Position numbers and translations under genes: made by a program
In this document: positions 8,170 through 35,962 of the stretch, in pieces
Position numbering within the stretch: position 1 is the stretch's first letter
Layout of the letters: each line of letters starts with the position of its first letter
The notes under the pieces: model-generated
What the model saw: the letters and a program-made list of their open reading frames with translations, nothing else
What the model was told of the DNA's origin: nothing
Database searches by the model: none
Origin: an uncultured Clostridia bacterium
GTDB taxonomy: Bacteria > Bacillota > Clostridia > Oscillospirales > Acutalibacteraceae
DNA length: 64,000 nucleotides
Assembly: GCA_947589415.1 (NCBI GenBank)
Contig: CANQBP010000004.1
Location: forward strand, 1 to 64,000
Direction: 5' to 3'

Positions 8170-9627
8170 CTACCCGTGAATAAACATCTGCACCCAGTAT
8201 AAATAACCGTCCTTTTCATAGCAGCCGACTGCAATCCCGTCAAATGTTTCCGAAAGTATATTGTTCCTGTGACCCTCGGAGTTCATCCAGCTGTTCATAA
8301 CTTCCTCGGGAGTCCTCTGACCCCCGGCAATATTTTCGCCGACCGAAGTATAAGATATGTTGTTGTCGGCATAAATCGAAAAGCATGATCTTCCGTCGGG
8401 TCTTGAGTGTTTAAACAGTTTGGAAATTTCTTTAGCTCTCGTATTCGCCAAAGGTATAATATCACTTCGCTTTTTAACGGCGGGAAGTCCTCTTGACGTT
8501 CTCTCCTTGTTTACGAGTTCTATGACTTTGTCACAATATTGATTGTAGTTATTGACATTAGTGTTTTGGGTATCCTTGACCGTTATGCTGCACTTGGCGG
8601 TCACTCCGTTTTCCGTTTTTACTGTTATCGTTGCAGTTCCTGCTTTTTTAGCGGTTATTTTGGCTGTGGAATACTCGCCGTTTTCCACGCTGACGATATT
8701 TTCGTTGCTGCTGTTCCAGCTGAGTGGTATATTACTGTTTCCAATGTCAGTTTGTGCCGAAAGCGTATAAGTATCTCCCATGTGCAGCGTTATGTTTGTT
8801 TCATTAAGTCTTGCGGAGGTCGGCACACCCTCTACGTCTACCTTACAGTTTGCGGATATACCGTTTTCCGTCTTAAAGCTGATATTTGCCGTGCCGGGTT
8901 TCTTAGCCTTTATTATTCCGTTAGTATATTCTATAACAGATGCATCGTCTATATAATAGCTGTATGATTTATTGATTGTATCTTCGGGAAGAATTGTCGC
9001 ATTAAGGTCGTATGATTGTCCGGTTTTGAGTGATACATGATGCGAACGCAGATGTATTTCCTTTGCTTCCTCTCTGTCCTCAACATAAGACGGCGGGGCG
9101 GGATTATCAGGTTGGGTCGGGTTTTGGTTTTCGGAAGGTGTCGTATTTCCGTTTGGTGATTCGTCGGGCGTATCGGTTTCCAGCGTTTGATCTCCGTGAT
9201 TTTCGGGGTTATTCGTTGTATTTTCCTGTGGTGTATTTTCCGAGCCTGTTTCTGTGGATTGTTTGTCGGAACTTTCATTTTCGGAAGTCTTATTTTCCGA
9301 TTTTTCGTTTTCTGAATTTTGTTTTGAAACCGAACTTTCATCGTCTGATTTTTCTTTTTCCGAATTTTCCTTCACTTTGCTTTCATTTGAAATATCGGAG
9401 GCTTCGCTGTTATCGGAAGATGAAGTATTTCCCGTTTGACCCGTGATGCTGCCGTCAGATGATGTTATTTCAAAATCGTCAATTGTTGATGAACCGTCGG
9501 ATTCCTGTGAAACATCGAGGATATTGTTATCCGTATTTTTATGTACGATACTTCCGACATAAGTTCCTACTACTGTTACGGTCAAAAGAAGAGCCGCAGC
9601 TATACATATAATTCTTTCTTTTTTCAT
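8170..9627 (-). CDS. Secreted CAP/SCP-domain protein with Big_2 repeats
   Basis: I place the start at the ATG at 9627 (MKKERIICIAAALLL), seven bases after AGGAGG; the GTG six bases earlier overlaps that site. The 485-residue product has an N-terminal signal anchor (about residues 5-27). A long low-complexity linker rich in Ser, Glu, Asn, Lys and Thr (about 40-185) follows, then two bacterial Ig-like (Big_2) domains (about 190-270 and 272-350) and a C-terminal CAP domain (about 360-485). The CAP signature residues include HSRPDG, GENIAGG and SWMNSEGHRNNIL. Such proteins sit on or outside the cell wall, but the CAP activity in bacteria is unsettled. Confidence 0.85.
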   Translation of the reverse strand: MKKERIICIAAALLLTVTVVGTYVGSIVHKNTDNNILDVSQESDGSSTIDDFEITSSDGSITGQTGNTSSSDNSEASDISNESKVKENSEKEKSDDESSVSKQNSENEKSENKTSENESSDKQSTETGSENTPQENTTNNPENHGDQTLETDTPDESPNGNTTPSENQNPTQPDNPAPPSYVEDREEAKEIHLRSHHVSLKTGQSYDLNATILPEDTINKSYSYYIDDASVIEYTNGIIKAKKPGTANISFKTENGISANCKVDVEGVPTSARLNETNITLHMGDTYTLSAQTDIGNSNIPLSWNSSNENIVSVENGEYSTAKITAKKAGTATITVKTENGVTAKCSITVKDTQNTNVNNYNQYCDKVIELVNKERTSRGLPAVKKRSDIIPLANTRAKEISKLFKHSRPDGRSCFSIYADNNISYTSVGENIAGGQRTPEEVMNSWMNSEGHRNNILSETFDGIAVGCYEKDGYLYWVQMFIHG

Positions 9628-9859: not shown

Positions 9860-10022
9860 AAAAATAAAAAGTACGCAGCCGAAAAGCCGCGTACCGAAAA
9901 ACGCATCATCTGTTATTGCTGCCACACAACTTTCTCAAATCCAAATGAAAATGAAAAGAGAGGATGCATTTTTACCGATTGTAAAAATTACATTTGGATA
10001 GACAATATTGAGCTGCGTGGCA
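9860..10022 (-). ncRNA. Probable structured RNA with pseudoknot (family not recognised)
   Basis: Read on the minus strand, a transcript starting near 10022 would fold from its first base. Helix P1 pairs 10012-10022 with 9920-9930 (11 pairs, two G-U). P2 pairs 9991-9999 with 9939-9947 (9 pairs). P3 pairs 9981-9988 with 9968-9975 (8 pairs, 5-base loop). A pseudoknot is possible between 9959-9968 and 9902-9911 (9 of 10 pairs). The RNA ends in a hairpin (9886-9894 with 9871-9879) followed by a T-tract (9870-9860). A strong promoter lies just upstream. It could be a stand-alone small RNA or a leader/attenuator of the CAP gene 230 bases downstream. I do not recognise it as 6S, tmRNA or a common riboswitch. 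Confidence 0.6.
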
Positions 10023-10028
10023 ATTATC

Positions 10029-10243: not shown

Positions 10244-10274
10244 TGTCACTTAAAAGTCATTTAGGTATTATATT
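10244..10274 (+). promoter_or_regulatory. Direct-repeat regulator box and promoter of permease A
   Basis: TGTCACTTAAAAGTCATTTA (10244-10263) contains two half-sites, GTCACTTA and GTCATTTA, repeated at 11 bp, one helical turn. This is the typical geometry of OmpR/PhoB-type response-regulator sites. A -10-like TATTAT/TATATT follows at 10266-10274. The first half-site overlies the -35 position, which otherwise lacks a good hexamer, as in activator-dependent promoters. The same 20 bases occur before both ATPase copies. Binding by the response regulator encoded at 24861 is inferred. Confidence 0.6.
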
Positions 10275-10333: not shown

Positions 10334-13126
10334 ATGAAAATTATGAAAAAAATTGTTATAAGGGATCTGAAAATGAACAAAGTCAGATGTTTTGCTACAT
10401 TTATAGCCATAATTCTTTCTATCTCACTGATAACCGTTGCTGTAAATATGGTTGAGGGCATTGAAAAAACCATGAATAACTATTTTCAAAAACAGTACGG
10501 TAATTACGACATAAGCCTGATTTTTGATCCTGCATACAAAGACAGCGGGAAAAAAATCAGCCTTAACAGAAATGTGCAGTCTTTATATATTAAAAGAAGA
10601 ATAGGTTTGTCGCTCTTTGAAAATTCAAGATCAAATTACAGAAAAGCCATAGAAATAAGTGCATATAACAGAGAGGCATTCGGGGAATGTTTTGATTTTG
10701 CCTTAAAAGAGGGAAGATATCCCGAAAATTCAAATGAGGTCGTTTTATCCGAGAATTTTGTCGATTTTTCAAATAAGGTCTACCGTGTAGGGGATAAGAT
10801 CACACTTGATATCGGCAGTTATTATACGGGAAAATCGGGCGATTACAATTTTGCACTTTTTGAGTCATGTTTTGACGATAATTTCAAATTTGTAAAATCG
10901 TTTACAAAAACCTATACCGTAACAGGCATACTCGAACGTGAGCCGCAGGAAGAATTATATAATGATCTCGAATATTACCGACAGGTCGTAAACATATATA
11001 CCTGCGCCGAATTATCGGACGTTTTAGAAACGGCATACACGGTAACAAACCGTAAACCGCAGACTGATGACGAAAAATACCTCTTTCCGCAAAGGTTTTA
11101 CATAAAGCTGAAAGGTACAAATGATATATCGCTTTCGTTCTTGTCCGACATTACCGGAATAGACGAGGATACATTAAATGATTATTTTTTTAATGAATAT
11201 TCAGACAGAAACGGAACTGATGAGAAGCTGAACGGGTGTGATATGCATATATGGGGAGCTGAAATAAACGCTGATCTGCATAGATACAGTCAAATCGCAA
11301 ACTCGGTAGTATTCTGCGCAGGAATTGCCGTTATCGTCATAATTATGATATCGAGCATATTTATAATAAAAAATGCATTTTCCGTTTCTGTAATCGAAAA
11401 AACAGTTTTATACGGAAGGCTTATATCAATAGGCGCAGCACCGATACAGATAAGAAACAGCGTCTTTTTTGAGGGCTTTATTTTATGTATTGCGGGTATT
11501 CCTGCGGGACTGATTATAGGGGCAGTCGGTGTCGCGGCTTTGTCGAGTCTTTCAAATATGTTTGTTCCCGATTTTCTTGACGGAACGATGTTGGAAACCT
11601 GTATATCTCCGCTGTCTGTTTTGCTTGCCGTTTTGCTCGGTTTTGCTACTGTATTTCTTTCATGTCTTTCCGCATCAATGAGGGCATCGGAAATTTCTCC
11701 GATAGAAGCTGTAAGGAAAAACCGTGATATAAAAGGGATAAATAACAAAAAACTGAAATGTCCGAGGTGGGCGGTGAAAATATTCGGCGAGGGCGGTAAA
11801 ATAGCATGGAAAAATATGAAACGTAGCAGACGTCAATACCGTACAACGGTAATTTCCGCAGCACTCGGAGTCGGTATATTTATAAGCTCCGCAGCTTTTG
11901 TTGAATGTACGTCATATTTGTATAGTCAGGACATAAAGGACTATAAATACAATATCTCTCTCCAATCATCTTGCGGAATGTCTGATAATGGAACGAATAC
12001 GCTTGATAAAATTGAAGATATTTATATGCGTATATCGTCATTTGATGAGGTTGACAATTATTATTACTGTTTTGAAAATAATGTGGGGGCATATACATAT
12101 GACTTACCGAAATCCAAAATGCCGTCGGAGATGAAAAAGGCACAATGGTTCGATGAGAATATTCAGGGTGATATAGAGTCGGGTGAGTTGACGGGCGGTT
12201 TTTTCGTTTATGTTTACGATGAAATTACATACAGGAAACTGCTTGAAAAATACGGATTAAAATACGATGATGTTAAAGACAAAGCAATATTTGTAAATGT
12301 TGTTACTGCGGGATATGAGGATAAAAATGACAGTGAAAATCCGATAAAGGAATATAATTGCAGGATTATTGATAATCCGGTAGGATATACCGTGAATGCG
12401 GAGTGCTGTTATGCCGAAGATACGGGCAGACCGCATGAGATAAGTATTGAGATTGGGGCGGAAATTACCGATTTATCCGTGTTTGAGGATATTATGGAAA
12501 CGTGGTGCATACCCAAGGGAGGATTTATCGTCACAACGGATTGGCTGAGAGAAAATATTAAACAGTATGATATATTTGGCAGTATGTTTCTTAATTCTTC
12601 TGAGCCTGCAAAAACCGAGAGAAGATTGAACGAATTTTCGGATTACATTTCCCTGAATAACAGGTCAAATGAAATGCAGATGACATATTCGTTTTTGTCG
12701 CTGATACAGTTTTTTGTTTACGGATTTATATGTGTGATCGCACTCATAGGAATTACAAATATGATAAATACAATATCAACAAATACAAAGCTAAGGCAGA
12801 GAGAATATGCCGTACTGCGATCCGTGGGAATGACTAAGCGTGAATTTAAGAGCATGACGCTCCTTGAAAGTCTTTTCTGTACAACAAAATCTCTTTTGGC
12901 AGGAATTATTTTAGGTCTTGCGGGAACGTTTATTGTCCGATATTTCTATTTCGGTTCTTTTTATCCGCAGGACAATGACATTCAATTACCGTTTATTTTC
13001 CCGTGGGCTGCAATCATTATAAGTATTGCTGTCGTTTCGATAACGATATTTACTGTAACGATGCTTTCCGCAAGAAAATCGTATAACCGAAATATTATAG
13101 AAACCATAAGGAACGATAATATTTGA
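10334..13126 (+). CDS. Large FtsX-family ABC permease A
   Basis: The ATG at 10334 follows AGAGGG and aligns with the starts of its two paralogs (M-K/N-I-M). The protein of 930 residues is two FtsX/MacB-type halves. Each half has one transmembrane helix, a large extracytoplasmic domain of about 230-280 residues, then three helices. Helices are visible near residues 20-42, 315-340, 370-395, 420-445, 505-525, 800-825, 850-875 and 888-915. The second half opens with GKIAWKNMKRSRRQYRT. The C-terminus ETIRNDNI is shared by all three permeases here. Such permeases work with a LolD/MacB-like ATPase in antimicrobial peptide resistance, lipoprotein handling or peptide export. This copy is the only complete A. 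Confidence 0.85.
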   Translation: MKIMKKIVIRDLKMNKVRCFATFIAIILSISLITVAVNMVEGIEKTMNNYFQKQYGNYDISLIFDPAYKDSGKKISLNRNVQSLYIKRRIGLSLFENSRSNYRKAIEISAYNREAFGECFDFALKEGRYPENSNEVVLSENFVDFSNKVYRVGDKITLDIGSYYTGKSGDYNFALFESCFDDNFKFVKSFTKTYTVTGILEREPQEELYNDLEYYRQVVNIYTCAELSDVLETAYTVTNRKPQTDDEKYLFPQRFYIKLKGTNDISLSFLSDITGIDEDTLNDYFFNEYSDRNGTDEKLNGCDMHIWGAEINADLHRYSQIANSVVFCAGIAVIVIIMISSIFIIKNAFSVSVIEKTVLYGRLISIGAAPIQIRNSVFFEGFILCIAGIPAGLIIGAVGVAALSSLSNMFVPDFLDGTMLETCISPLSVLLAVLLGFATVFLSCLSASMRASEISPIEAVRKNRDIKGINNKKLKCPRWAVKIFGEGGKIAWKNMKRSRRQYRTTVISAALGVGIFISSAAFVECTSYLYSQDIKDYKYNISLQSSCGMSDNGTNTLDKIEDIYMRISSFDEVDNYYYCFENNVGAYTYDLPKSKMPSEMKKAQWFDENIQGDIESGELTGGFFVYVYDEITYRKLLEKYGLKYDDVKDKAIFVNVVTAGYEDKNDSENPIKEYNCRIIDNPVGYTVNAECCYAEDTGRPHEISIEIGAEITDLSVFEDIMETWCIPKGGFIVTTDWLRENIKQYDIFGSMFLNSSEPAKTERRLNEFSDYISLNNRSNEMQMTYSFLSLIQFFVYGFICVIALIGITNMINTISTNTKLRQREYAVLRSVGMTKREFKSMTLLESLFCTTKSLLAGIILGLAGTFIVRYFYFGSFYPQDNDIQLPFIFPWAAIIISIAVVSITIFTVTMLSARKSYNRNIIETIRNDNI

Positions 13127-13170
13127 ATCAGGCTTTATTTATCAATTTTTAATATCAGGGAGGAATTTTC

Positions 13171-15966
13171 ATGAATATAATGCATACTCTTACGATGAAA
13201 AGTCTTAAAATGAATAAGAGCCGTACTATTGCTACCGTGGTAGGAATAATACTGTCTATGACACTGATAACTGTTGTTGCGAATGTTATTTTAAGTCTGA
13301 AAGAAACCGAGGAAAATTATTTTACGAAGTACTACGGCAATTATGACATATCCCTGACGGGAAATATATCTGCCGAAAATGCGAAAAAACTTGAGTCTAA
13401 CAGAGATGTTGACGGGGTTTATTTATATGAAAATATAGGGACTGCCGTTTTTGAAAATTCAAAATCAAATTTCCGTGATATGATAAATATAACGGCTTTC
13501 AGCAGAAATACTTTCGGTAAAGTTTTTGACAGTTCTCTTTCGGAGGGCAGATACCCGGAAAATCCCGATGAGGTTGTGCTGTCGGAGAATTTTGTAAATT
13601 ATTCCGAGAAAAAGTATAATGTCGGTGACAAAATAACGCTGAATGTGGGAATAAACAGTTACTCAAGTTATGGTGAGGAATCAGGCGAATATGACGAATA
13701 TCAGACATTTGATAAAGATGAGTTTGAGCCGGTATTCACTAAAACCTATACGATATGCGGAATACTTAACAGAGAACCGTTTGTTTATAAAGACAGAGAG
13801 TCTGCCGTTTATAACGGTTCAACGGTCAATATATATACATATACCGATTTTACGGATAAAATTCAGACTGCATACAGGGATAGAGATGATAATACCCGTG
13901 ATGTATTTATAAAACTGAAGGAGGGCGGAAAGGAGAACGCAAAGATATTTTTGTCTGAACTGTTAGATGTTGATTTACAGGAATTAAAAAAAATCAATTC
14001 TGATTTGGTGATAGACGAGGACTTGGGCGGTAAATTATCCGAAAGCGAATTTCATATTTCATATGCGCAGATAAACGGAGAACTGTACGACAATATTTTA
14101 AGAATTCTTAATATAATATTTTATGTCGGTCTGGGATTTATTATAATCATAATGATATCGAGCGTATTTATAATTAAAAACGGTTTTCTTATATCACTCA
14201 CGGAAAAGACGGTACTTTACGGTAAAATTTCGGGCATAGGCGCAACTCCGAGGCAGATTAGAAACAGTATGTTATTTGAAGGTCTGGTTCTCGGTATTAT
14301 AGGCATACCTATCGGTCTTGTTACGGGTATCGGAGGAACAACGCTCGCTGTCGCTTTTTCTTCAAAAATACTTAGCGGCATAACCGGAGGAGTGGAGCTT
14401 ATATTCGACATATCATGGCTGTCGTTGATACCGGCGGTAATACTCGGTGCGATTACGGTATTTTTTTCCTCGCTTTTTGCCGCCGTCAAATCTTACCGTA
14501 TTTCTCCGATCGAGGCAATAAGAAGCAATAAGTACATAAACATAAAAAGAAAAAAGAAAAATCCCTTTAAATCTCCCGCATGGGTGGGCAAATTATTCGG
14601 TGCAGGAGGAAAAATTGCATGGAAAAATATGAAAAGGAGCAGCCGCCAATACCGTACCGTGGTCGTATCGTTAGTTGTGAGTATATCTGTATTTATAGGG
14701 GTGTTTTCGTTTGTTGATTACACAATATATAATTTGAAAAAAGTTTATACAGGTGATTTTAATTATAATATGACAGCATATATAAAGCAGGGCAAAACAT
14801 CGGCAGATGAGCTTAGTTTCGATGAAAAGGAAAGTATTTTTCTTGATATTGCCCGTTCAAAGGAGATTAAAGAGTTTTGTTATAAATTTGAAAGTTGTTA
14901 TGATTATTGTTTTGATATTCCGATTGATAAGATACCGAATAATATTATAAATTCCGATTATTATGATATGTTCATGAAAAATAATATTTGGGATAATACA
15001 CTTCATAACACCGAAGCAAGAATTGTTGCCTATGATGACAACACATACAATACGATACTTGACAGACTCGGTTACAGATATGATGATATGAAAGATAAAG
15101 CTATTCTTGTGAATATAGACAGTGTCTATGATTTTGAGAATAATTCCGATGATGAATATATAACTGACAAATTCATGATTGATCCGATAGGCTATAAAAT
15201 AAATTTGAAATTTAATGAAGCGGAGCAGAATGAAAGGAGTATTTCACAAAACGCCGAACAGCTTACTCTTGAAATAGGCGGAGAGATAACCGACACATCT
15301 GTCTTTGATGATACTGTTTTTTCCGAGAAAAGTAACGGGGGCGGTGAATTTTATTACAGAAGCCTTATTGTCAGCAAGGAGTGGCTGAAAAAGAATTATT
15401 ACGATAAGGATAATCTTGATAATTTTATGTATATACTGTCCGAAGATCCCGATAAGACAGAACAAAGCATTGATATTTCCGATGATTACTTAACCGTTGA
15501 AAATTTTTACACAAGGCAAAAACAAACTAATTCCGTAATTATGCTCGTACAATTTCTTTTATACGGTTTTTTGTGTGCTATATCGCTTATAGTAGTCACA
15601 AATATATTCAATACCATAAATACCAATACGAAACTCAGGCAAAAGGAATATGCAATGCTGCGTTCCGTGGGAATGACAAAGCGTGAATTTAACCGTATGA
15701 CAGTACTTGAATGTATGTTTTATACGGTAAAGTCATTGATTATAGGAATACTGACAGGTCTTGCCGTCACGACCGTCATACATTTCTGTTATCTTCATAC
15801 ATGGGACGATAGAAATAAAGGAACACTTGCTTTTATGTTCCCGTGGACGGCTGTTGTTATAAGCATATTGGTGGTTACTTTGTTTGTTGTACTCATCGCC
15901 GTATTTTCCGTAAGGAGAATTTATAAGCTGAATATCGTGGAAACAATAAGAAATGACAACATCTGA
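13171..15966 (+). CDS. Large FtsX-family ABC permease B, copy 1
   Basis: This 931-residue paralog of permease A begins 44 bases after it with GGGAGG before the ATG. It has the same two-half architecture. The N-terminal helix is near 20-42, followed by a large extracytoplasmic domain and helices near 315-340, 370-395 and 425-450. The mid-protein GKIAWKNMKRSSRQYRT starts the second half, which has a second extracytoplasmic domain, three helices and the terminal ETIRNDNI. The motif LRQKEYAMLRSVGMTKREF near residue 820 is a hallmark of the FtsX cytoplasmic loop that contacts the ATPase. It lies wholly within the duplicated unit. Its substrate is unknown. Confidence 0.87.
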   Translation: MNIMHTLTMKSLKMNKSRTIATVVGIILSMTLITVVANVILSLKETEENYFTKYYGNYDISLTGNISAENAKKLESNRDVDGVYLYENIGTAVFENSKSNFRDMINITAFSRNTFGKVFDSSLSEGRYPENPDEVVLSENFVNYSEKKYNVGDKITLNVGINSYSSYGEESGEYDEYQTFDKDEFEPVFTKTYTICGILNREPFVYKDRESAVYNGSTVNIYTYTDFTDKIQTAYRDRDDNTRDVFIKLKEGGKENAKIFLSELLDVDLQELKKINSDLVIDEDLGGKLSESEFHISYAQINGELYDNILRILNIIFYVGLGFIIIIMISSVFIIKNGFLISLTEKTVLYGKISGIGATPRQIRNSMLFEGLVLGIIGIPIGLVTGIGGTTLAVAFSSKILSGITGGVELIFDISWLSLIPAVILGAITVFFSSLFAAVKSYRISPIEAIRSNKYINIKRKKKNPFKSPAWVGKLFGAGGKIAWKNMKRSSRQYRTVVVSLVVSISVFIGVFSFVDYTIYNLKKVYTGDFNYNMTAYIKQGKTSADELSFDEKESIFLDIARSKEIKEFCYKFESCYDYCFDIPIDKIPNNIINSDYYDMFMKNNIWDNTLHNTEARIVAYDDNTYNTILDRLGYRYDDMKDKAILVNIDSVYDFENNSDDEYITDKFMIDPIGYKINLKFNEAEQNERSISQNAEQLTLEIGGEITDTSVFDDTVFSEKSNGGGEFYYRSLIVSKEWLKKNYYDKDNLDNFMYILSEDPDKTEQSIDISDDYLTVENFYTRQKQTNSVIMLVQFLLYGFLCAISLIVVTNIFNTINTNTKLRQKEYAMLRSVGMTKREFNRMTVLECMFYTVKSLIIGILTGLAVTTVIHFCYLHTWDDRNKGTLAFMFPWTAVVISILVVTLFVVLIAVFSVRRIYKLNIVETIRNDNI

Positions 15967-15981
15967 TAAATTTTTTGTATG

Positions 15982-16014
15982 TGTCACTTAAAAGTCATTT
16001 AAGTATAGTATATT
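15982..16014 (+). promoter_or_regulatory. Direct-repeat regulator box before ATPase copy 1
   Basis: This is the same 20-base box as upstream of permease A (15982-16001), followed by TATAGT/TATATT as possible -10 elements (16004-16014). It separates the permease A-B transcript from an ATPase-permease C transcript, so both would respond to the same regulator. Confidence 0.6.
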
Positions 16015-16058
16015 TAAGGTGTAAAATAAATACAGAAAGGTATTTTCGGGAGGTAAAT

Positions 16059-16730
16059 ATGGAAATTTTAAGAGTAGAAAAACTTGTTAAAACTTACAAG
16101 GAAGGAAAGGACGAATTTAATGCCGTTGACAATGTATCGTTTTCGGTGGAAAAGGGGGATTTTGTTGCAGTTGTGGGAGCAAGCGGAAGCGGTAAGAGTA
16201 CGCTTATGCACATGATAGGCGGTGTTGACAGACCGACAAGCGGCAAAATACTTATTGACGGTAATGAAATCAATACAATGGATAATAATAAACTCGCTAT
16301 ATTCAGAAGGCGGCAGATAGGGATAGTATATCAGTTTTATAACCTGATACCGATACTGACTGCGGAGGAGAATATATCCTTGCCGATAGAGCTTGACGGA
16401 AGGAAGCCCGACAAGGAAAAGATAGAGGAGGTAATGGAGAGGCTGGGTATTATTGATAAGAGAAACAGTCTTCCGAACGAGCTTTCCGGCGGACAGCAGC
16501 AAAGAGTAGCAATTGCAAGAGCAATAATAAATAACCCTACAATACTGCTTGCCGATGAGCCGACGGGAAATCTCGATACCAATGCTGCGGACGAGATAGT
16601 TAATATTTTCAAGATGACAAATAAGAACTACAAGCAGACAATAATTATGATAACACATAACCCCGAAATAGCGAAAGAAGCTGACAGAATACTTCGTATT
16701 CAAGACGGTAAGCTGGTAGGGGAGGCTTAA
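16059..16730 (+). CDS. MacB/LolD-type ABC ATPase, copy 1
   Basis: The ATG at 16059 follows GGGAGG; an upstream in-frame start at 15975 lies inside the promoter and is not used. The 223-residue protein is a single nucleotide-binding domain. It has Walker [10 protein letters not shown], a Q-loop in [12 protein letters not shown], signature [15 protein letters not shown], Walker B ILLADE, D-loop GNLD and H-loop ITHNPEIA. It is the usual ATPase partner of FtsX-type permeases and is the only ATPase type in this locus, so it must energise permeases A, B and C or some of them. Permease C starts three bases after its stop. Confidence 0.92.
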
Positions 16731-16733
16731 TGT

Positions 16734-17066
16734 ATGAAGATAATGCATAGGCTGACGGTCAAAGGACTGAAAATGAACAAAAGCAGGACAATAGCTACAT
16801 TTGCAGCTATTGCCCTGTCGATGACGCTTATAACGATAATTGCGAACACGGTTGTTGGTTTGAAGGAATCGATCTATGATTTCTATATAAAACGTGACGG
16901 TAATTATGACGTATCCTTTGTTATGAAAGAACCGACAAAGGAGAATATCGAAAAGTTAAGGCTTAACAGAGATGCAGAGGAAGTATATCTTTGTCAGGAT
17001 ATCGGTGTCGTGCCGTTTACGGATTCTAAGTCAAAATTCAGAGAAAATATTTTTATAAAATCATAA
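16734..17066 (+). pseudogene. Truncated permease C, 5' remnant at the duplication junction
   Basis: The first 110 codons are identical to intact permease C (21907). They cover the N-terminal helix and the start of the extracytoplasmic domain. At 17065/17066 the sequence jumps to the interior of permease A. The TA of C's tyrosine codon plus the first A from gene A form a TAA stop. The product would be a one-helix fragment with no transport function. The frame continues into the permease A remnant without a shift. Confidence 0.9.
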
Positions 17067-18299
17067 GCTTTTGTTGAATGTACGTCATATTTGTATAGTC
17101 AGGACATAAAGGACTATAAATACAATATCTCTCTCCAATCATCTTGCGGAATGTCTGATAATGGAACGAATACGCTTGATAAAATTGAAGATATTTATAT
17201 GCGTATATCGTCATTTGATGAGGTTGACAATTATTATTACTGTTTTGAAAATAATGTGGGGGCATATACATATGACTTACCGAAATCCAAAATGCCGTCG
17301 GAGATGAAAAAGGCACAATGGTTCGATGAGAATATTCAGGGTGATATAGAGTCGGGTGAGTTGACGGGCGGTTTTTTCGTTTATGTTTACGATGAAATTA
17401 CATACAGGAAACTGCTTGAAAAATACGGATTAAAATACGATGATGTTAAAGACAAAGCAATATTTGTAAATGTTGTTACTGCGGGATATGAGGATAAAAA
17501 TGACAGTGAAAATCCGATAAAGGAATATAATTGCAGGATTATTGATAATCCGGTAGGATATACCGTGAATGCGGAGTGCTGTTATGCCGAAGATACGGGC
17601 AGACCGCATGAGATAAGTATTGAGATTGGGGCGGAAATTACCGATTTATCCGTGTTTGAGGATATTATGGAAACGTGGTGCATACCCAAGGGAGGATTTA
17701 TCGTCACAACGGATTGGCTGAGAGAAAATATTAAACAGTATGATATATTTGGCAGTATGTTTCTTAATTCTTCTGAGCCTGCAAAAACCGAGAGAAGATT
17801 GAACGAATTTTCGGATTACATTTCCCTGAATAACAGGTCAAATGAAATGCAGATGACATATTCGTTTTTGTCGCTGATACAGTTTTTTGTTTACGGATTT
17901 ATATGTGTGATCGCACTCATAGGAATTACAAATATGATAAATACAATATCAACAAATACAAAGCTAAGGCAGAGAGAATATGCCGTACTGCGATCCGTGG
18001 GAATGACTAAGCGTGAATTTAAGAGCATGACGCTCCTTGAAAGTCTTTTCTGTACAACAAAATCTCTTTTGGCAGGAATTATTTTAGGTCTTGCGGGAAC
18101 GTTTATTGTCCGATATTTCTATTTCGGTTCTTTTTATCCGCAGGACAATGACATTCAATTACCGTTTATTTTCCCGTGGGCTGCAATCATTATAAGTATT
18201 GCTGTCGTTTCGATAACGATATTTACTGTAACGATGCTTTCCGCAAGAAAATCGTATAACCGAAATATTATAGAAACCATAAGGAACGATAATATTTGA
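17067..18299 (+). pseudogene. Permease A remnant, 3' part after the junction
   Basis: The frame from 17067 is identical to permease A from about residue 522 to its end: the tail of helix five, the second extracytoplasmic domain and the last three helices ending ETIRNDNI. It has lost its own start. The first possible internal start is a TTG at 17091, which has no ribosome site. It is in the same frame as the permease C remnant upstream, separated by one TAA codon. Readthrough or reversion of that codon would make a chimera of about 520 residues. Confidence 0.9.
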
Positions 18300-18343
18300 A
18301 TCAGGCTTTATTTATCAATTTTTAATATCAGGGAGGAATTTTC

Positions 18344-21139
18344 ATGAATATAATGCATACTCTTACGATGAAAAGTCTTAAAATGAATAAGAGCCGTACT
18401 ATTGCTACCGTGGTAGGAATAATACTGTCTATGACACTGATAACTGTTGTTGCGAATGTTATTTTAAGTCTGAAAGAAACCGAGGAAAATTATTTTACGA
18501 AGTACTACGGCAATTATGACATATCCCTGACGGGAAATATATCTGCCGAAAATGCGAAAAAACTTGAGTCTAACAGAGATGTTGACGGGGTTTATTTATA
18601 TGAAAATATAGGGACTGCCGTTTTTGAAAATTCAAAATCAAATTTCCGTGATATGATAAATATAACGGCTTTCAGCAGAAATACTTTCGGTAAAGTTTTT
18701 GACAGTTCTCTTTCGGAGGGCAGATACCCGGAAAATCCCGATGAGGTTGTGCTGTCGGAGAATTTTGTAAATTATTCCGAGAAAAAGTATAATGTCGGTG
18801 ACAAAATAACGCTGAATGTGGGAATAAACAGTTACTCAAGTTATGGTGAGGAATCAGGCGAATATGACGAATATCAGACATTTGATAAAGATGAGTTTGA
18901 GCCGGTATTCACTAAAACCTATACGATATGCGGAATACTTAACAGAGAACCGTTTGTTTATAAAGACAGAGAGTCTGCCGTTTATAACGGTTCAACGGTC
19001 AATATATATACATATACCGATTTTACGGATAAAATTCAGACTGCATACAGGGATAGAGATGATAATACCCGTGATGTATTTATAAAACTGAAGGAGGGCG
19101 GAAAGGAGAACGCAAAGATATTTTTGTCTGAACTGTTAGATGTTGATTTACAGGAATTAAAAAAAATCAATTCTGATTTGGTGATAGACGAGGACTTGGG
19201 CGGTAAATTATCCGAAAGCGAATTTCATATTTCATATGCGCAGATAAACGGAGAACTGTACGACAATATTTTAAGAATTCTTAATATAATATTTTATGTC
19301 GGTCTGGGATTTATTATAATCATAATGATATCGAGCGTATTTATAATTAAAAACGGTTTTCTTATATCACTCACGGAAAAGACGGTACTTTACGGTAAAA
19401 TTTCGGGCATAGGCGCAACTCCGAGGCAGATTAGAAACAGTATGTTATTTGAAGGTCTGGTTCTCGGTATTATAGGCATACCTATCGGTCTTGTTACGGG
19501 TATCGGAGGAACAACGCTCGCTGTCGCTTTTTCTTCAAAAATACTTAGCGGCATAACCGGAGGAGTGGAGCTTATATTCGACATATCATGGCTGTCGTTG
19601 ATACCGGCGGTAATACTCGGTGCGATTACGGTATTTTTTTCCTCGCTTTTTGCCGCCGTCAAATCTTACCGTATTTCTCCGATCGAGGCAATAAGAAGCA
19701 ATAAGTACATAAACATAAAAAGAAAAAAGAAAAATCCCTTTAAATCTCCCGCATGGGTGGGCAAATTATTCGGTGCAGGAGGAAAAATTGCATGGAAAAA
19801 TATGAAAAGGAGCAGCCGCCAATACCGTACCGTGGTCGTATCGTTAGTTGTGAGTATATCTGTATTTATAGGGGTGTTTTCGTTTGTTGATTACACAATA
19901 TATAATTTGAAAAAAGTTTATACAGGTGATTTTAATTATAATATGACAGCATATATAAAGCAGGGCAAAACATCGGCAGATGAGCTTAGTTTCGATGAAA
20001 AGGAAAGTATTTTTCTTGATATTGCCCGTTCAAAGGAGATTAAAGAGTTTTGTTATAAATTTGAAAGTTGTTATGATTATTGTTTTGATATTCCGATTGA
20101 TAAGATACCGAATAATATTATAAATTCCGATTATTATGATATGTTCATGAAAAATAATATTTGGGATAATACACTTCATAACACCGAAGCAAGAATTGTT
20201 GCCTATGATGACAACACATACAATACGATACTTGACAGACTCGGTTACAGATATGATGATATGAAAGATAAAGCTATTCTTGTGAATATAGACAGTGTCT
20301 ATGATTTTGAGAATAATTCCGATGATGAATATATAACTGACAAATTCATGATTGATCCGATAGGCTATAAAATAAATTTGAAATTTAATGAAGCGGAGCA
20401 GAATGAAAGGAGTATTTCACAAAACGCCGAACAGCTTACTCTTGAAATAGGCGGAGAGATAACCGACACATCTGTCTTTGATGATACTGTTTTTTCCGAG
20501 AAAAGTAACGGGGGCGGTGAATTTTATTACAGAAGCCTTATTGTCAGCAAGGAGTGGCTGAAAAAGAATTATTACGATAAGGATAATCTTGATAATTTTA
20601 TGTATATACTGTCCGAAGATCCCGATAAGACAGAACAAAGCATTGATATTTCCGATGATTACTTAACCGTTGAAAATTTTTACACAAGGCAAAAACAAAC
20701 TAATTCCGTAATTATGCTCGTACAATTTCTTTTATACGGTTTTTTGTGTGCTATATCGCTTATAGTAGTCACAAATATATTCAATACCATAAATACCAAT
20801 ACGAAACTCAGGCAAAAGGAATATGCAATGCTGCGTTCCGTGGGAATGACAAAGCGTGAATTTAACCGTATGACAGTACTTGAATGTATGTTTTATACGG
20901 TAAAGTCATTGATTATAGGAATACTGACAGGTCTTGCCGTCACGACCGTCATACATTTCTGTTATCTTCATACATGGGACGATAGAAATAAAGGAACACT
21001 TGCTTTTATGTTCCCGTGGACGGCTGTTGTTATAAGCATATTGGTGGTTACTTTGTTTGTTGTACTCATCGCCGTATTTTCCGTAAGGAGAATTTATAAG
21101 CTGAATATCGTGGAAACAATAAGAAATGACAACATCTGA
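18344..21139 (+). CDS. Large FtsX-family ABC permease B, copy 2
   Basis: This is the duplicate of the gene at 13171. The 931-residue translation is identical, and the upstream 44-base spacer and GGGAGG ribosome site are the same. Because the upstream permease A copy is broken, translation of this gene depends on whatever transcript crosses the junction. It may be transcribed from the regulator box before ATPase copy 1, through the chimeric pseudogene. It doubles the dosage of B relative to A and C. Confidence 0.87.
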   Translation: MNIMHTLTMKSLKMNKSRTIATVVGIILSMTLITVVANVILSLKETEENYFTKYYGNYDISLTGNISAENAKKLESNRDVDGVYLYENIGTAVFENSKSNFRDMINITAFSRNTFGKVFDSSLSEGRYPENPDEVVLSENFVNYSEKKYNVGDKITLNVGINSYSSYGEESGEYDEYQTFDKDEFEPVFTKTYTICGILNREPFVYKDRESAVYNGSTVNIYTYTDFTDKIQTAYRDRDDNTRDVFIKLKEGGKENAKIFLSELLDVDLQELKKINSDLVIDEDLGGKLSESEFHISYAQINGELYDNILRILNIIFYVGLGFIIIIMISSVFIIKNGFLISLTEKTVLYGKISGIGATPRQIRNSMLFEGLVLGIIGIPIGLVTGIGGTTLAVAFSSKILSGITGGVELIFDISWLSLIPAVILGAITVFFSSLFAAVKSYRISPIEAIRSNKYINIKRKKKNPFKSPAWVGKLFGAGGKIAWKNMKRSSRQYRTVVVSLVVSISVFIGVFSFVDYTIYNLKKVYTGDFNYNMTAYIKQGKTSADELSFDEKESIFLDIARSKEIKEFCYKFESCYDYCFDIPIDKIPNNIINSDYYDMFMKNNIWDNTLHNTEARIVAYDDNTYNTILDRLGYRYDDMKDKAILVNIDSVYDFENNSDDEYITDKFMIDPIGYKINLKFNEAEQNERSISQNAEQLTLEIGGEITDTSVFDDTVFSEKSNGGGEFYYRSLIVSKEWLKKNYYDKDNLDNFMYILSEDPDKTEQSIDISDDYLTVENFYTRQKQTNSVIMLVQFLLYGFLCAISLIVVTNIFNTINTNTKLRQKEYAMLRSVGMTKREFNRMTVLECMFYTVKSLIIGILTGLAVTTVIHFCYLHTWDDRNKGTLAFMFPWTAVVISILVVTLFVVLIAVFSVRRIYKLNIVETIRNDNI

Positions 21140-21154
21140 TAAATTTTTTGTATG

Positions 21155-21187
21155 TGTCACTTAAAAGTCATTTAAGTATAGTATATT
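21155..21187 (+). promoter_or_regulatory. Direct-repeat regulator box before ATPase copy 2
   Basis: Third occurrence of the 20-base box (21155-21174), created by the duplication, with the same -10-like bases after it. It would drive ATPase copy 2, intact permease C and possibly the downstream two-component genes, giving positive autoregulation if the response regulator binds here. Confidence 0.58.
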
Positions 21188-21231
21188 TAAGGTGTAAAAT
21201 AAATACAGAAAGGTATTTTCGGGAGGTAAAT

Positions 21232-21903
21232 ATGGAAATTTTAAGAGTAGAAAAACTTGTTAAAACTTACAAGGAAGGAAAGGACGAATTTAATGCCGTT
21301 GACAATGTATCGTTTTCGGTGGAAAAGGGGGATTTTGTTGCAGTTGTGGGAGCAAGCGGAAGCGGTAAGAGTACGCTTATGCACATGATAGGCGGTGTTG
21401 ACAGACCGACAAGCGGCAAAATACTTATTGACGGTAATGAAATCAATACAATGGATAATAATAAACTCGCTATATTCAGAAGGCGGCAGATAGGGATAGT
21501 ATATCAGTTTTATAACCTGATACCGATACTGACTGCGGAGGAGAATATATCCTTGCCGATAGAGCTTGACGGAAGGAAGCCCGACAAGGAAAAGATAGAG
21601 GAGGTAATGGAGAGGCTGGGTATTATTGATAAGAGAAACAGTCTTCCGAACGAGCTTTCCGGCGGACAGCAGCAAAGAGTAGCAATTGCAAGAGCAATAA
21701 TAAATAACCCTACAATACTGCTTGCCGATGAGCCGACGGGAAATCTCGATACCAATGCTGCGGACGAGATAGTTAATATTTTCAAGATGACAAATAAGAA
21801 CTACAAGCAGACAATAATTATGATAACACATAACCCCGAAATAGCGAAAGAAGCTGACAGAATACTTCGTATTCAAGACGGTAAGCTGGTAGGGGAGGCT
21901 TAA
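21232..21903 (+). CDS. MacB/LolD-type ABC ATPase, copy 2
   Basis: Identical in translation to the copy at 16059: 223 residues with [23 protein letters not shown] and ITHNPEIA. This copy sits three bases before the only intact permease C and is therefore the one in the ancestral ATPase-C-regulator-kinase order. Removing one repeat unit would leave a single ATPase for three permeases. Confidence 0.92.
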
Positions 21904-21906
21904 TGT

Positions 21907-24822
21907 ATGAAGATAATGCATAGGCTGACGGTCAAAGGACTGAAAATGAACAAAAGCAGGACAATAGCTACATTTGCAGCTATTGCCCTGTCGATGACGC
22001 TTATAACGATAATTGCGAACACGGTTGTTGGTTTGAAGGAATCGATCTATGATTTCTATATAAAACGTGACGGTAATTATGACGTATCCTTTGTTATGAA
22101 AGAACCGACAAAGGAGAATATCGAAAAGTTAAGGCTTAACAGAGATGCAGAGGAAGTATATCTTTGTCAGGATATCGGTGTCGTGCCGTTTACGGATTCT
22201 AAGTCAAAATTCAGAGAAAATATTTTTATAAAATCATACAGTGAAAATTATTTTGAAAAATGCTATAATTTCTCACTTCAGGAGGGACGTTATCCTCAAA
22301 AGCCCGATGAAGTAGTTCTGTCAAAAGATTTTGTTGACTATTCGTCTAAAGAGTATAAGGTAGGCGATGAGCTGACCCTTGACATAGGTGTGTATCATGC
22401 AGAATATGAAACGGATACGGGGGAGATCGAAGATCATATTCTGGGGCTTGATGATGTTGGTATTTCTTACTATGATTCGAAATTTGTAAAATCATTCAAA
22501 AAGACATATAAGATTGTCGGAATACTCAACGATGAGCCTAATATCGGTTTTCCCTTAGGTCACTGTCATGTGAATATATACGGATATACGGATTTATCCG
22601 ATAATATCGCAAGCGCACTTGATGAATGGGAATACGACAAAAATATATATGTTAAAGTTAATAACGGAAACCAAGATAACAGTATTGATTTTATATCCGA
22701 TATTACGGGAATAAGCGGAGCCGATATTTATAATGAACTTTACGGTTTCCGTATCTATGATTCTGAGGAAGAAATCAATGAGTCCGATTATGAGGAAGAA
22801 ACAAACGTACAGAAAGAACTGGAGCAGTGTGAATTTCATATTATTGATGTTAGTGTTAATGACTATCTTTATGAAACACTAAAAACATATGAAACATATG
22901 AGTACGTTATTTTTTATGTGAGCTTGGGGATTGTCCTGCTCGTTATGGCGGCAAGTGTATTTATAATAAAGAACAGCTTCTCCATGTCCGTAACAGAAAA
23001 GACCGTTATGTACGGAAAGCTGTCTACTGTCGGAGCAACACCGAAACAGATCAGAAACAGCATATTCTTTGAGGGCTTCATACTCGGAATATTCGGCATA
23101 GCTGCCGGATTGATTATAGGTATTGTCGGAAGTGCTGCCTCCGTTATGGTTGTAAATAACTTATTTTTAGATATGCTAAGCGAAGCGTACGGCGGATTTA
23201 AACTGATTTTTTCCGTGTCGTGGGAAGCAATGGCTGCGGCTGTTGTTCTTGGTGCGGCAACCATATTTCTTTCCTCACTTTCGGCAGCAATCAGAGCGTC
23301 GGGTATATCACCGATTGAAGCTGTTAGAAATAATAACGGGGTTCGTATAAATAAAAATAAGAAAAATGCGTTTAAGTCGCCGAAATGGGTAGACAGAGTA
23401 TTCGGTGCGGGCGGCAAAATTGCTTGGAAAAATATGAAGAGGAGTAAGCGTCAATATCGTACTGTTATAGTATCAATAATTGTAAGCGTATCTATATTTA
23501 TCGGTATTTTTTCCTTTGTTAATTATTCGCTTTATACTTATAGTTCGACCGTTATGCATTACAATTATAATATGCAGTTGGACATTGAAACATTGGAAGC
23601 TGAAGGAGATCGTATGTCCATTAAGGAGCAGGAGGATATATTCAAAGAAATTGCCGAATATGATGAGATAGATGATTATTGTTATCACTTCGACGACCTA
23701 TCAACTAATTTTGTGTATAACATCCCTGACAGTAAACTTCCCAAAAATATTAATGATTATTACACCACTATCGGATATAAGCAGTACAGCAGATATGAGT
23801 ATAATGAAGGAGTGGGTTTTGAGAGTATTGACAAGGAAGAAGCGATTAAGCCGAAATGGAAAAATATATCCGGCAGTGCGAGTTTAGTTGCTTTTGACGA
23901 TGATAATTATAAAAAACTGCTCAAAAAGTTGGGGTACACCTATGATGAAATGAAAGATAAGGCTATACTTGTCAATGTAAATTTAGCCGGCAAGGTAGTG
24001 GACGGTGATCCGACAAATTTGGTTTTTCAACAAATCAAATATATGGAGGATCCTGTCGGTTTCACATTAGACATGAGATATCATTTATATGATCGTGAAA
24101 ATTTTAAATATTTGCCGGAGGAAAAACACCTGGAGCTTGAAATAGGCGGTGAAATTACAGATCTCAGTACATTTAAGGATTGGATAATACGTGATAATTT
24201 GTATTATTGCGCACTTATTGTAAGTAAGGAATGGCTTTGCAAGAACCACCCCGATCCGGATTATTTTATTGATTCCGCAATGAATATATCCTCGTCAGAT
24301 CCGGCTAAAACGGAGCAAAGGCTTGGTGAAGAGTATGATAAAATATACCTGCAAAATATTGCCGGACAGGTAAGTCAGATGAACTCGGTAGCAACTCTTG
24401 TTCAATATATTGTATATGCCATTATAGCTGTAATTTCCCTTATTGCCATAACAAATATTTTCAATACCGTTACCACAAACATGAAGTTAAGGCAAAAGGA
24501 ATTTGCAATGCTGCGTTCTGTCGGTATGACTAAACGGGAGTTTAACCGCATGATAACACTTGAATGTGCTTTTTATACCGTGAAGGCATTGATTATAGGT
24601 ATCATAACGGGTATAATATGTACTGTGGCAATACATTTCCTGTTTGAAGGTATGTGGGATGCGGACAGGATAGGAAAGGCACTTGAATTTATTTTCCCGT
24701 GGCAGGCTGTGCTGATAAGTATTGCGGCTGTTGTTGCGTTGGTTTTCATTACTACCTGTTTTTCAAAGGTGAAGCTGAATAAGCAGAACATAATAGAAAC
24801 TATACGAAATGACAATATCTGA
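21907..24822 (+). CDS. Large FtsX-family ABC permease C
   Basis: This 971-residue protein is the third paralog, slightly longer than A and B because of larger extracytoplasmic domains. It starts three bases after the ATPase stop, with GGGAGG inside the ATPase end. It has the same plan: first helix near 20-42, an extracytoplasmic domain to about 340, three helices, GKIAWKNMKRSKRQYRT near 508, helix five, a second extracytoplasmic domain to about 835, three helices and the C-terminal ETIRNDNI. The acidic stretch around residues 290-315 (EEEINESDYEEETN) is unique to C. The first 110 codons are also present in the truncated copy at 16734. Confidence 0.87.
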   Translation: MKIMHRLTVKGLKMNKSRTIATFAAIALSMTLITIIANTVVGLKESIYDFYIKRDGNYDVSFVMKEPTKENIEKLRLNRDAEEVYLCQDIGVVPFTDSKSKFRENIFIKSYSENYFEKCYNFSLQEGRYPQKPDEVVLSKDFVDYSSKEYKVGDELTLDIGVYHAEYETDTGEIEDHILGLDDVGISYYDSKFVKSFKKTYKIVGILNDEPNIGFPLGHCHVNIYGYTDLSDNIASALDEWEYDKNIYVKVNNGNQDNSIDFISDITGISGADIYNELYGFRIYDSEEEINESDYEEETNVQKELEQCEFHIIDVSVNDYLYETLKTYETYEYVIFYVSLGIVLLVMAASVFIIKNSFSMSVTEKTVMYGKLSTVGATPKQIRNSIFFEGFILGIFGIAAGLIIGIVGSAASVMVVNNLFLDMLSEAYGGFKLIFSVSWEAMAAAVVLGAATIFLSSLSAAIRASGISPIEAVRNNNGVRINKNKKNAFKSPKWVDRVFGAGGKIAWKNMKRSKRQYRTVIVSIIVSVSIFIGIFSFVNYSLYTYSSTVMHYNYNMQLDIETLEAEGDRMSIKEQEDIFKEIAEYDEIDDYCYHFDDLSTNFVYNIPDSKLPKNINDYYTTIGYKQYSRYEYNEGVGFESIDKEEAIKPKWKNISGSASLVAFDDDNYKKLLKKLGYTYDEMKDKAILVNVNLAGKVVDGDPTNLVFQQIKYMEDPVGFTLDMRYHLYDRENFKYLPEEKHLELEIGGEITDLSTFKDWIIRDNLYYCALIVSKEWLCKNHPDPDYFIDSAMNISSSDPAKTEQRLGEEYDKIYLQNIAGQVSQMNSVATLVQYIVYAIIAVISLIAITNIFNTVTTNMKLRQKEFAMLRSVGMTKREFNRMITLECAFYTVKALIIGIITGIICTVAIHFLFEGMWDADRIGKALEFIFPWQAVLISIAAVVALVFITTCFSKVKLNKQNIIETIRNDNI

Positions 24823-24860
24823 TTAAGGTTTCGTGAATGCGGAGCTTATGGAGGGACTGC

Positions 24861-25508
24861 ATGAATATATTACTGGTCGAGGATAATAAATCTATAAGCA
24901 AGGGACTGGCATATTATCTTCACAATAACGGCTGTGAAACTGTGATATGCGGAACATACGACGAAGCAGTTGGAAAATCGGGCGGTGATTATGATGTTAT
25001 AATAATTGATATAACGCTGCCCGACGGAAACGGCTTTGAATTATATGAGGAGATAAAGAATATAAATCCCGCTCCGGTAATATTTCTCACCGCCCTTGAC
25101 GATGAGGACAGCATCGTCAAGGGATTTGACCTGGGTGCGGACGATTATATAACTAAGCCTTTTTCGAGCCGTGAACTGCTTGCAAGGATACGAAGACTTA
25201 CAAGAAAAAACGATGCTTTGCATACAAAGACGATAGGGGATATTGTTATTGATTTTAATTCCCGTATTGTAACTAAAAGCGGGTTATCTGTTGACCTTAC
25301 TTCTCTCGAATACAGGATTTTTTCCCTGCTTGTCCAAAATATCGGGAGAACTGTCAGCCGTGAAATAATATTGGAAAAAATATGGGACATTTCGGGGAAC
25401 TATGTAAACGACAATACACTAAGCGTTTATATAAAGCGTATAAGAAGAAAACTTGATACGGATATTATAAAAACGGTTAAAAATGTCGGTTACAGATTGG
25501 AGGAATAA
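24861..25508 (+). CDS. OmpR-family response regulator
   Basis: The ATG at 24861 follows GGAGGG; a start 24 bases earlier would add a non-homologous leader. The 215-residue protein has a receiver domain with the acidic pair in LLVEDN, phospho-acceptor aspartate in IIIDITLPDG, threonine in FLTALDD and lysine in ITKPF. A winged-helix DNA-binding domain (about 120-215) ends in DTDIIKTVKNVGYRL. It is co-directional with the permeases and overlaps the kinase start (TAATG). The likely targets are the direct-repeat boxes at 10244, 15982 and 21155. The pairing is inferred from genome context. Confidence 0.93.
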   Translation: MNILLVEDNKSISKGLAYYLHNNGCETVICGTYDEAVGKSGGDYDVIIIDITLPDGNGFELYEEIKNINPAPVIFLTALDDEDSIVKGFDLGADDYITKPFSSRELLARIRRLTRKNDALHTKTIGDIVIDFNSRIVTKSGLSVDLTSLEYRIFSLLVQNIGRTVSREIILEKIWDISGNYVNDNTLSVYIKRIRRKLDTDIIKTVKNVGYRLEE

Positions 25509-26725
25509 TGAAACGTTCAAAGTTGTATGTAATATCATTTGCCGTGATAACAATAATTTTTGCGGCTGTAAGCATTTTTGTTACAAAGCTGAATCTCGAC
25601 AGTATCAAAAATACGGTAAATCGGTCTAATGAACAAATGATAAATGTGTTGCTTGAAAAATATCCCGATGTCGATGAAACCGAAATTATGGAGATACTTA
25701 ACGGTAAAGAGGAAAGCCGTGAGGGAGAAAAGTTTCTTAACAGCTACGGAATATCGACTGATGAATGGCTGTTGTATGAAAACGAACAAAATACCCGTAA
25801 TACCGTAATTATGACTGCGGCAATCGTTATTCTTGCGGGAGCCGTGTTTACAGCCGTCTTTATTTTGTATCTGAAACATCGAAAAAAGGAGATAGTCAGG
25901 CTTACGGATTATCTGACCGCAATTAACAGCGGAAATTACAATATGGAAACAGAACAAAATACCGAAGATGAAAATTCCGTACTGAAAAATGAAATATATA
26001 AAACAACGGTAATGCTGCGTGAATACTCGGAAAAAAACATAAGTGACAAGTTATATCTCAAAAAGTCCATATCGGATATATCACATCAGATAAAGACCCC
26101 GATGACATCTACAATGATAATGGTGGATAATCTTATTGAAGATAATGATATGACCGAGAAAATGCGAAAGGAGTTTTTACATGATATAAGACAGTCGCTT
26201 AATGACATCAGCTTTCTTGTTCAGTCGCTGCTCACTCTTTCAAGGCTTGACTCAAATGCGATCGAATTTCATTTTGAAAACGAAAACATAGAAAACATAT
26301 TCGATGAATGTATAAGAAACACGGATATTATAGCCGAACTTAAAGGCGTAAACATAATCAAAAGCGAATGCGGGGATATAAGTGTAAAATGCGATAAAAA
26401 ATGGATATGCGAAGCGTTGTCGAATATCGTGAAAAACAGTATCGAGCATACCCCGCGGGGCGGCAGGGTTACTCTTGCATCTGATGAAAACAGGCTTTAT
26501 ACAAAGATAACGATATCCGATACGGGCAAGGGCATATCGGAAAAAGATCTTCCGCATATTTTTGAACGGTTTTATAAATCTGCCAATTCCGAGGGCAGCG
26601 GTATAGGAATAGGTTTGTCACTTTCAAAGAGTATCATAGAAAAACATAACGGAAGCATAGATGTAAAGTCTGATGTCGGAAGAGGAACAACATTTACCAT
26701 AAAACTCTACAAATACAAGCAGTAG
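25508..26725 (+). CDS. Sensor histidine kinase
   Basis: The 405-residue kinase has a transmembrane helix at about 7-28, an extracytoplasmic segment of some 65 residues, and a second helix near 98-118. A HAMP-like linker follows, then a HisKA motif ISDISHQIKTPMTS with the phospho-accepting histidine. The HATPase_c domain has N-box IVKNSIEHTPRGG, G1 box DTGKGIS and FERFYKS. The short external domain differs from BceS-type intramembrane sensors, which lack one, so direct ligand sensing is possible. The start overlaps the regulator stop by one base, and GGAGGA precedes it. It closes the operon. Confidence 0.92.
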   Translation: MKRSKLYVISFAVITIIFAAVSIFVTKLNLDSIKNTVNRSNEQMINVLLEKYPDVDETEIMEILNGKEESREGEKFLNSYGISTDEWLLYENEQNTRNTVIMTAAIVILAGAVFTAVFILYLKHRKKEIVRLTDYLTAINSGNYNMETEQNTEDENSVLKNEIYKTTVMLREYSEKNISDKLYLKKSISDISHQIKTPMTSTMIMVDNLIEDNDMTEKMRKEFLHDIRQSLNDISFLVQSLLTLSRLDSNAIEFHFENENIENIFDECIRNTDIIAELKGVNIIKSECGDISVKCDKKWICEALSNIVKNSIEHTPRGGRVTLASDENRLYTKITISDTGKGISEKDLPHIFERFYKSANSEGSGIGIGLSLSKSIIEKHNGSIDVKSDVGRGTTFTIKLYKYKQ

Positions 26726-35005: not shown

Positions 35006-35962
35006 ATGGAGTTTCTTAAATGGGTTCTTGCGGGAATAGGCGGTCTTATCATTTTGCTTGTTGTTATAATGGCAATTGTGTGCGCTTATTTTTACCGCAG
35101 AACGATGAAGAGGAGTAAGGCTAAAACAGAAACTACGATAAAAATGGCCGGTACGGATTGGGAACAGTATTTTCCTTTTATTGACAAAAGAAAGGAATAT
35201 ATGCTCGCCCAACCGCATGAAGATGTGTATATTCAGTCTGATGACGGACTGAAACTCCACGGGGTTTACTTCCCGGTAGGAGATGAGAAAAAGATTGTAA
35301 TATGTTTCCACGGTTATACAAGTCATGCTATGAGTGATTATCTTGCCTTGTCGGGATATTATCTCAAAAAGGGTTTCAGTATGCTGCTTGTCGATGAAAG
35401 AGCGCACGGTCAAAGCGAAGGTGAATATATCGGTTTCGGCTGTCTTGACAGAATAGATGCACTCGGTTGGCTCAAATACATAATCAATCGCTGCGGAGAG
35501 GACATTGATATACTGCTTCACGGAACTTCAATGGGCGGTGCGACCGTTCTGATGGCGAGCGGACTTGACCTTCCGAAACAAGTGAAGGGTATCATATCGG
35601 ATTGCGGTTTTACATCTCCCAAGTACGTGTTTACACACGTTCTCCATTCAATGTACCATATGCCTGCATTTCCTATAATACCTGTTGCAGATTACATAAA
35701 CAAAAAGAAAGCCGGCTACGGTATGGACGAGTGTAATGCCGCAAGAGAGGTAAGGAAAGCCAAAGTGCCGATTTTGTTTATCCACGGTGATGCGGACTTT
35801 TTCGTTCCGTGCAGTATGTGTGACGAGATATATGAAAATTGTGCGTCGCCGAAAGATAAATTGATAGTTAAGGGGGCGAGTCATGCGGAAAGCTACTACA
35901 AGGATCCGGATACCTATGAAAAATATCTGAACAAATTTATTGAAGGAGTTAAGATACGATGA
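35006..35962 (+). CDS. Membrane-anchored alpha/beta hydrolase
   Basis: GGAAGTAGGA precedes the ATG at 35006. The 318-residue protein has one N-terminal transmembrane helix (about 6-28). A S33-type alpha/beta hydrolase domain follows, with oxyanion HGYTSHA, nucleophile elbow HGTSMGG (Ser), acid DADFFVP (Asp) and catalytic GASHAES (His). The triad is complete. Family members cleave esters, amides or thioesters. Inside this operon a thioesterase or lipid-remodelling role is plausible. Its stop overlaps the next start (ATGA), so the two are translationally coupled. Confidence 0.87.
   Translation: MEFLKWVLAGIGGLIILLVVIMAIVCAYFYRRTMKRSKAKTETTIKMAGTDWEQYFPFIDKRKEYMLAQPHEDVYIQSDDGLKLHGVYFPVGDEKKIVICFHGYTSHAMSDYLALSGYYLKKGFSMLLVDERAHGQSEGEYIGFGCLDRIDALGWLKYIINRCGEDIDILLHGTSMGGATVLMASGLDLPKQVKGIISDCGFTSPKYVFTHVLHSMYHMPAFPIIPVADYINKKKAGYGMDECNAAREVRKAKVPILFIHGDADFFVPCSMCDEIYENCASPKDKLIVKGASHAESYYKDPDTYEKYLNKFIEGVKIR

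Follow-up and report, generated by a model that had tools for sequence, protein, structure and literature searches.

A perfect 5173-base tandem repeat in an FtsX-permease operon of an uncultured Clostridia bacterium is most likely a homology-independent duplication

The 64-kb stretch of DNA analysed here (64,000 nucleotides, referred to as the window) contains a perfect tandem repeat within a transporter operon, and the most likely explanation is a real, homology-independent tandem duplication that at least some members of the sequenced population carry. Direct comparison of the two copies (Table 1) showed that 5173 of 5173 bases are the same and that the copies lie head to tail. The run of identity at an offset of 5173 spans exactly the first copy, starting and stopping at its bounds, and a search of the window for direct repeats of at least 40 bases (seed 20) found no family besides this unit.

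The unit starts at about residue 532 of the 942-residue open reading frame of permease A and holds the 3' part of A, the whole of permease B, a regulator box, an ATPase gene and the first 332 bases (110 codons) of permease C. This results in the layout A-B-box-ATPase-C' / 'A-B-box-ATPase-C-RR-HK, with permease B, the ATPase and the box doubled within the unit and intact A, intact C, the response regulator (RR) and the histidine kinase (HK) present once each. All three permeases carry FtsX and MacB_PCD domains (Pfam), have 931-971 residues and 8 predicted transmembrane (TM) segments in duplicated 4-TM halves, and are divergent (42-46% identical) while being served by one ATPase type. C' and the headless 'A lie in one frame, with a stop codon created across the joint, and these two fragments are probably inert. 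A preliminary description of this DNA had reported a perfect 5173-bp tandem repeat with these contents in a large FtsX-permease and ATPase locus; the repeat and its contents are confirmed, and the gene calls and domains bear out the nature of the locus, including a two-component pair.

Table 1. Positions of the repeat, its joint and the genes and boxes of the transporter operon in the window
Feature	Positions	Strand	Basis
Copy 1 of the 5173-base unit	11893..17065	+	identity comparison
Second, identical copy in head-to-tail order	17066..22238	+	identity comparison
Joint 17065/17066, TAA across 17064-17066, no shared bases	17064..17067	+	
Box upstream of A	10245..10263	+	
Permease A, intact; first ATG 10334, ORF open from TTG 10298	10334..13126	+	
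Permease B copy 1, 931 aa, 8 TM predicted	13171..15966	+	
Box upstream of ATPase, copy 1	15983..16001	+	
ABC ATPase copy 1, 223 aa from ATG	16059..16730	+	
Truncated permease C' (110 aa), comprising TM1 and the beginning of the first loop domain	16734..17066	+	
Headless 3' permease A ('A), 3 predicted TM segments, without first ~532 residues	17067..18299	+	
Permease B copy 2	18344..21139	+	
Box, copy 2	21156..21174	+	
ABC ATPase copy 2	21232..21903	+	
Permease C, intact, 971 aa	21907..24822	+	
OmpR/PhoB-type response regulator, outside unit	24837..25508	+	
Sensor histidine kinase, outside unit, 2 TM, ~77 aa between	25508..26725	+	

The copies abut at the joint with zero shared bases: the left flank has no base in common with the end of the unit, nor does the right flank with its start. 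Duplication by homologous recombination needs a repeat at both unit ends, and with zero shared bases there is none, so that the joint, being without exact homology, did not arise through recombination between repeats, as the preliminary description had also concluded. Zero shared bases was the commonest result for random joints in the locus (53% of 200000). The motif TTTATAA occurs in register 7 bases ahead of the break, in the left flank and in the unit end; the patch is imperfect, and a run of at least 7 within 20 bases was found at 0.17% of random joints in the locus, a figure from a test made only post hoc.

A comparison with related genomes lacking the repeat had been suggested as a check, and it showed the single-copy layout in the relatives: the alignment passes the C breakpoint uninterrupted in four of four related loci (L009, L010, L011 and L156, the last on G021:C36), of which L009 is the nearest relative with 86% identical DNA. 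An orthologue of permease A is present in two of the four and is full length in both (L009 P1, 953 aa; L156 P3, 944 aa), while L010 and L011 are without it. Since the relatives run through the C breakpoint and A is continuous where present, the C'/'A joint is the sole new adjacency.

How the genome was assembled limits what the identity of the copies can tell. The genome (G000) is a draft of 95 contigs and 2.29 Mb, and exact matches of at least 15 bases were counted among the 176 N-free contig ends out of 190. Twelve end-to-end overlaps were found, six of exactly 77 bases and one each of 75, 64, 58, 46, 32 and 17, together with nine pairs of shared outward ends (76 bases in two pairs and exactly 77 in the other seven); no sharing longer than 77 bases was found among these 176 ends. 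Ends that share exactly k bases are the trace of a de Bruijn assembler, here with k=77, and the genome looks like such an assembly made from short reads. In a k=77 graph, a repeat of 5 kb forms a single edge that the assembler traverses two times, and the copies are identical because the same edge is written twice. The earlier claim that near-perfect identity implies a recent event is thereby weakened, and dating by identity was rejected, as identity forced by the assembler does not show recency. The same caution applies to other drafts, where the perfect identity of long tandem copies built from short reads is the assembler's writing and no basis for dating. The consulted portion of PMC9104695 mentions metaSPAdes with k=77 and also indicates that the number of turns is not readable from a graph cycle, which makes "two copies" the assembler's estimate.

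The strongest of the competing explanations, although we regard it as unlikely, is an artefact of the assembly or the library, in which chimeric reads, or the concatenation after assembly of two pieces sharing the unit, turned a single genomic copy into two. The preliminary description was right to raise this caveat. The 95 contigs with their k=77-type ends and the single copy in the relatives speak for an artefact, and perfect identity combined with an integer two copies would be expected from an artefact too. However, false graph loops arise from identical sequence in different contexts (PMC9104695, in the portion consulted), and such a loop is disfavored here since no repeat of at least k bases, as an assembly loop artefact needs, bounds the unit. 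The window has no run of N, and because the contig ends share at most 77 bases, an untrimmed overlap of 5173 bases would not fit this assembly; for the same reason, it is unlikely that an A-X-X-B contig resulted from untrimmed circularisation or from overlapping contigs. Moreover, the exact 110-aa C' product was found on two contigs in a large protein set, one of them the 107019-base contig of the window. The second contig may belong to another assembly of the same sample, or it may be an edge left unresolved in the graph and stopping at this very base, in which case 110 residues would result as well. The members of the protein set are not shown, and only the contig count for P0001 was used, with caution; member counts as a measure of independent truncated copies were dropped. 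Full-length A was missing from its own search of this set, where the best listed match was 57%, and we think that it is clustered under P0002.

A mixture of strains is improbable. Here, the contig would merge a single-copy strain with one in which a different rearrangement, such as a higher copy number, has the identical C'/'A joint. A permease B variant (E251D) on a 4369-base contig shows that public data include at least two strains of the species, and graph cycles give no number of turns (PMC9104695, as far as consulted), but no second arrangement was seen in the genome itself, with the joint found once and the unit only as two copies.

We give very little credence to an excised 5173-base circle existing alongside one chromosomal copy. 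Its graph would not differ from the one that a tandem duplication gives, and from the cycle ambiguity treated in the consulted portion of PMC9104695 we infer that graph topology alone cannot separate the two, but the unit ends are without the direct repeats that site-specific or homologous excision would leave, and no recombinase or replication gene is encoded in the unit. A search of a plasmid set with permease B gave 8 records, each <60% identical and none covering 80%. A mobile element or circle was rejected on these grounds: no bounding repeats, no Pfam recombinase, no close plasmid match and no C'/'A joint in viral contigs by exact search.

Several observations count against a real duplication. 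The joint was not found in any of the other genomes searched. The tandem in the window is an isolated case, since 58 whole contigs (5 read as N; 495142 N-free bases) yielded no further perfect tandem repeat at an offset of at least 300; several perfect tandem copies with offsets of 66-276 bases were found in the same contigs. A short-read assembler also normally breaks at a loop that is longer than the insert. On this point the consulted portion of PMC6052550 is divided: one statement has such regions as impossible to reconstruct, and another has SPAdes reconstructing tandem repeats that exceed the insert in length. The simulated motifs in that portion were at most 500 bases. The literature consulted, in part, on metaSPAdes false duplications, exSPAnder loops and rabbit metagenome-assembled genomes added nothing direct to the statements cited here.

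For a real tandem duplication, we propose that an illegitimate event would have joined codon 110 of permease C to approximately codon 532 of A and thereby generated A-B-box-ATPase-C' / 'A-B-box-ATPase-C. In the short-read graph, the unit would be one edge with the joint as a back edge, and the assembler would have walked the edge twice. The event would double the dose of permease B, the ATPase and the box promoter while leaving A, C, the response regulator and the histidine kinase single, and transcription reading through from the promoter of the copy-1 ATPase would extend to copy 2 of B. A direct repeat of 5.2 kb would be expected to expand or collapse through homologous recombination, and the copy number probably differs between cells. 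If real, this is a natural homology-independent duplication of transporter genes in an uncultured gut bacterium.

Amplifications of a similar kind are known from other transporter genes. For sdrM in Staphylococcus aureus, amplifications of 7-13 kb with joints showing no or little homology are described in the consulted portion of PMC11721125, which also reviews the tandem duplication and amplification of the patAB transporter genes in Streptococcus pneumoniae. The window shares with these cases a kilobase-scale unit that carries transporter genes head to tail and, with sdrM as described there, a joint with little or no homology. In contrast to them, it belongs to the draft of an uncultured gut bacterium with no known selection or phenotype, and its unit cuts two genes, so that A and C are not doubled.

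The preliminary description had called the system an antimicrobial-peptide transporter, a label that is a guess and is not supported by the 8-TM MacB/FtsX-type permeases and the kinase loop of ~77 residues. BceB-type permeases have ~650 aa, 10 TM segments and one large loop, and BceS-type kinases are intramembrane-sensing with a very short extracellular loop. Like BceAB-BceRS, the window has a single locus that combines an FtsX permease and an ATPase with a response regulator and a histidine kinase, but it differs from these generally known Bce features in permease size and topology (931-971 aa, 8 predicted TM) and in the ~77 residues between the two predicted TM segments of the kinase. Permease B, the only one of the three to which these PDB scores apply, gave weak matches to YtrF, LolF, LolC and PsdB chains, the best being YtrF with 33.9 bits compared to 18.7 bits for PsdB. 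We rejected a Bce-type antimicrobial-peptide module as not supported by permease size and topology, the kinase loop and the profile and PDB scores. MacB, LolCDE and YtrF (type VII) and the ADOP permeases share with the window the FtsX and MacB_PCD domains, a separate ATPase and duplicated 4-TM halves. However, the scores against TIGR03434 (ADOP) were 38.0 bits for A, 36.8 for B and 37.5 for C, far below the cut-off of 622.3, and those against the NCBIfam LolCE model were also far below its cut-off; in addition, the three permeases of the window share one ATPase.

The regulator box, GTCACTTAAAA-GTCATTTA, is an 11-base direct repeat with exact matches at the three positions in Table 1, compared to 0.01 matches expected by chance in the window, which makes the box that had been noted in the unit a real one. 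Only one further site, with 1 mismatch, was found in the whole genome, and the box is thus nearly unique to the transporter operon. It is followed by a TATTAT/TATAGT-like -10 hexamer, and its form suggests that it may be bound by the response regulator. In L009, L010, L011 and L156, the box likewise precedes both the first permease and the ATPase, with at most 2 mismatches.

In the relative L156 (G021:C36, 13653-19458), the box, the ATPase and the C-type permease each occur twice, arranged in tandem. The ATPases are 97% identical and the C-type permeases 64% across the portion that aligns, P5 being truncated at the contig end, and since the two C-type permeases fall in different clades of the tree, the operon module was duplicated long ago in that lineage. 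As in the window, the doubling is in tandem and within the same operon, but the L156 pair is old, with diverged C-type permeases. If the duplication in the window is real, the two make a before-and-after pair. A tentative extension, which we hold to be possible but doubtful, is that the genus diversifies this operon through repeated tandem duplication of a permease-box-ATPase-permease module sharing one regulator box; the window would then represent the step at birth, a fresh and copy-number-variable duplication selectively raising B and the ATPase, and L156 a later, fixed outcome.

Outside the operon, a candidate new structured leader RNA that ends in an intrinsic terminator was found on the minus strand at 9866-10024, upstream of a YkwD/CAP gene (8170-9627). 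It has a promoter (TTGACA-17-TACTAT, 10057-10029) and a terminator hairpin (9895-9870), and its folding energy has a z of -4.65, with 0 of 200 shuffles being as good. A covariance model found matches in 11/64 genomes of the genus and in 45/147 genomes of the order, representing 37/86 genera (loci L173, L180, L169-L179, L181-L184, L186 and L188-L210). In the 25 matches outside the genus, standard pairs make up 94.7% of pair cells compared to 74.9% after shuffling, and both partners vary in 29 of 36 pairs. Covariation is strong, with a score of 0.594 compared to 0.186 shuffled and at most 0.099 slid; the alignment is fitted to the model, which favors these figures. The searches made revealed no Rfam 15 family overlapping the element at the gathering score. 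One contig (G200:C48) carries three copies in tandem, ~200 bases apart. Of the 14 genus loci with enough sequence, 13 have a same-strand ORF beginning 21-239 bases downstream (in the 14th, ORF and element overlap; another 3 loci, at contig edges, were excluded), and in the 25 matches outside the genus an ORF starts within 150 bases in 17 and at 15-32 bases in 13, counts that have no chance baseline. Genes downstream encode, among others, lipoprotein-like, signal-peptide-like, CAP, SLH and WG-repeat proteins, and the element resembles a riboswitch or attenuator. At the gathering score, the window has a single Rfam match, an L10 leader (RF00557) at 52303-52449. At 35959-39139, a condensation-domain protein adjoins an AMP-binding enzyme, after an alpha/beta hydrolase, and this is possibly a small nonribosomal-peptide-like cluster.
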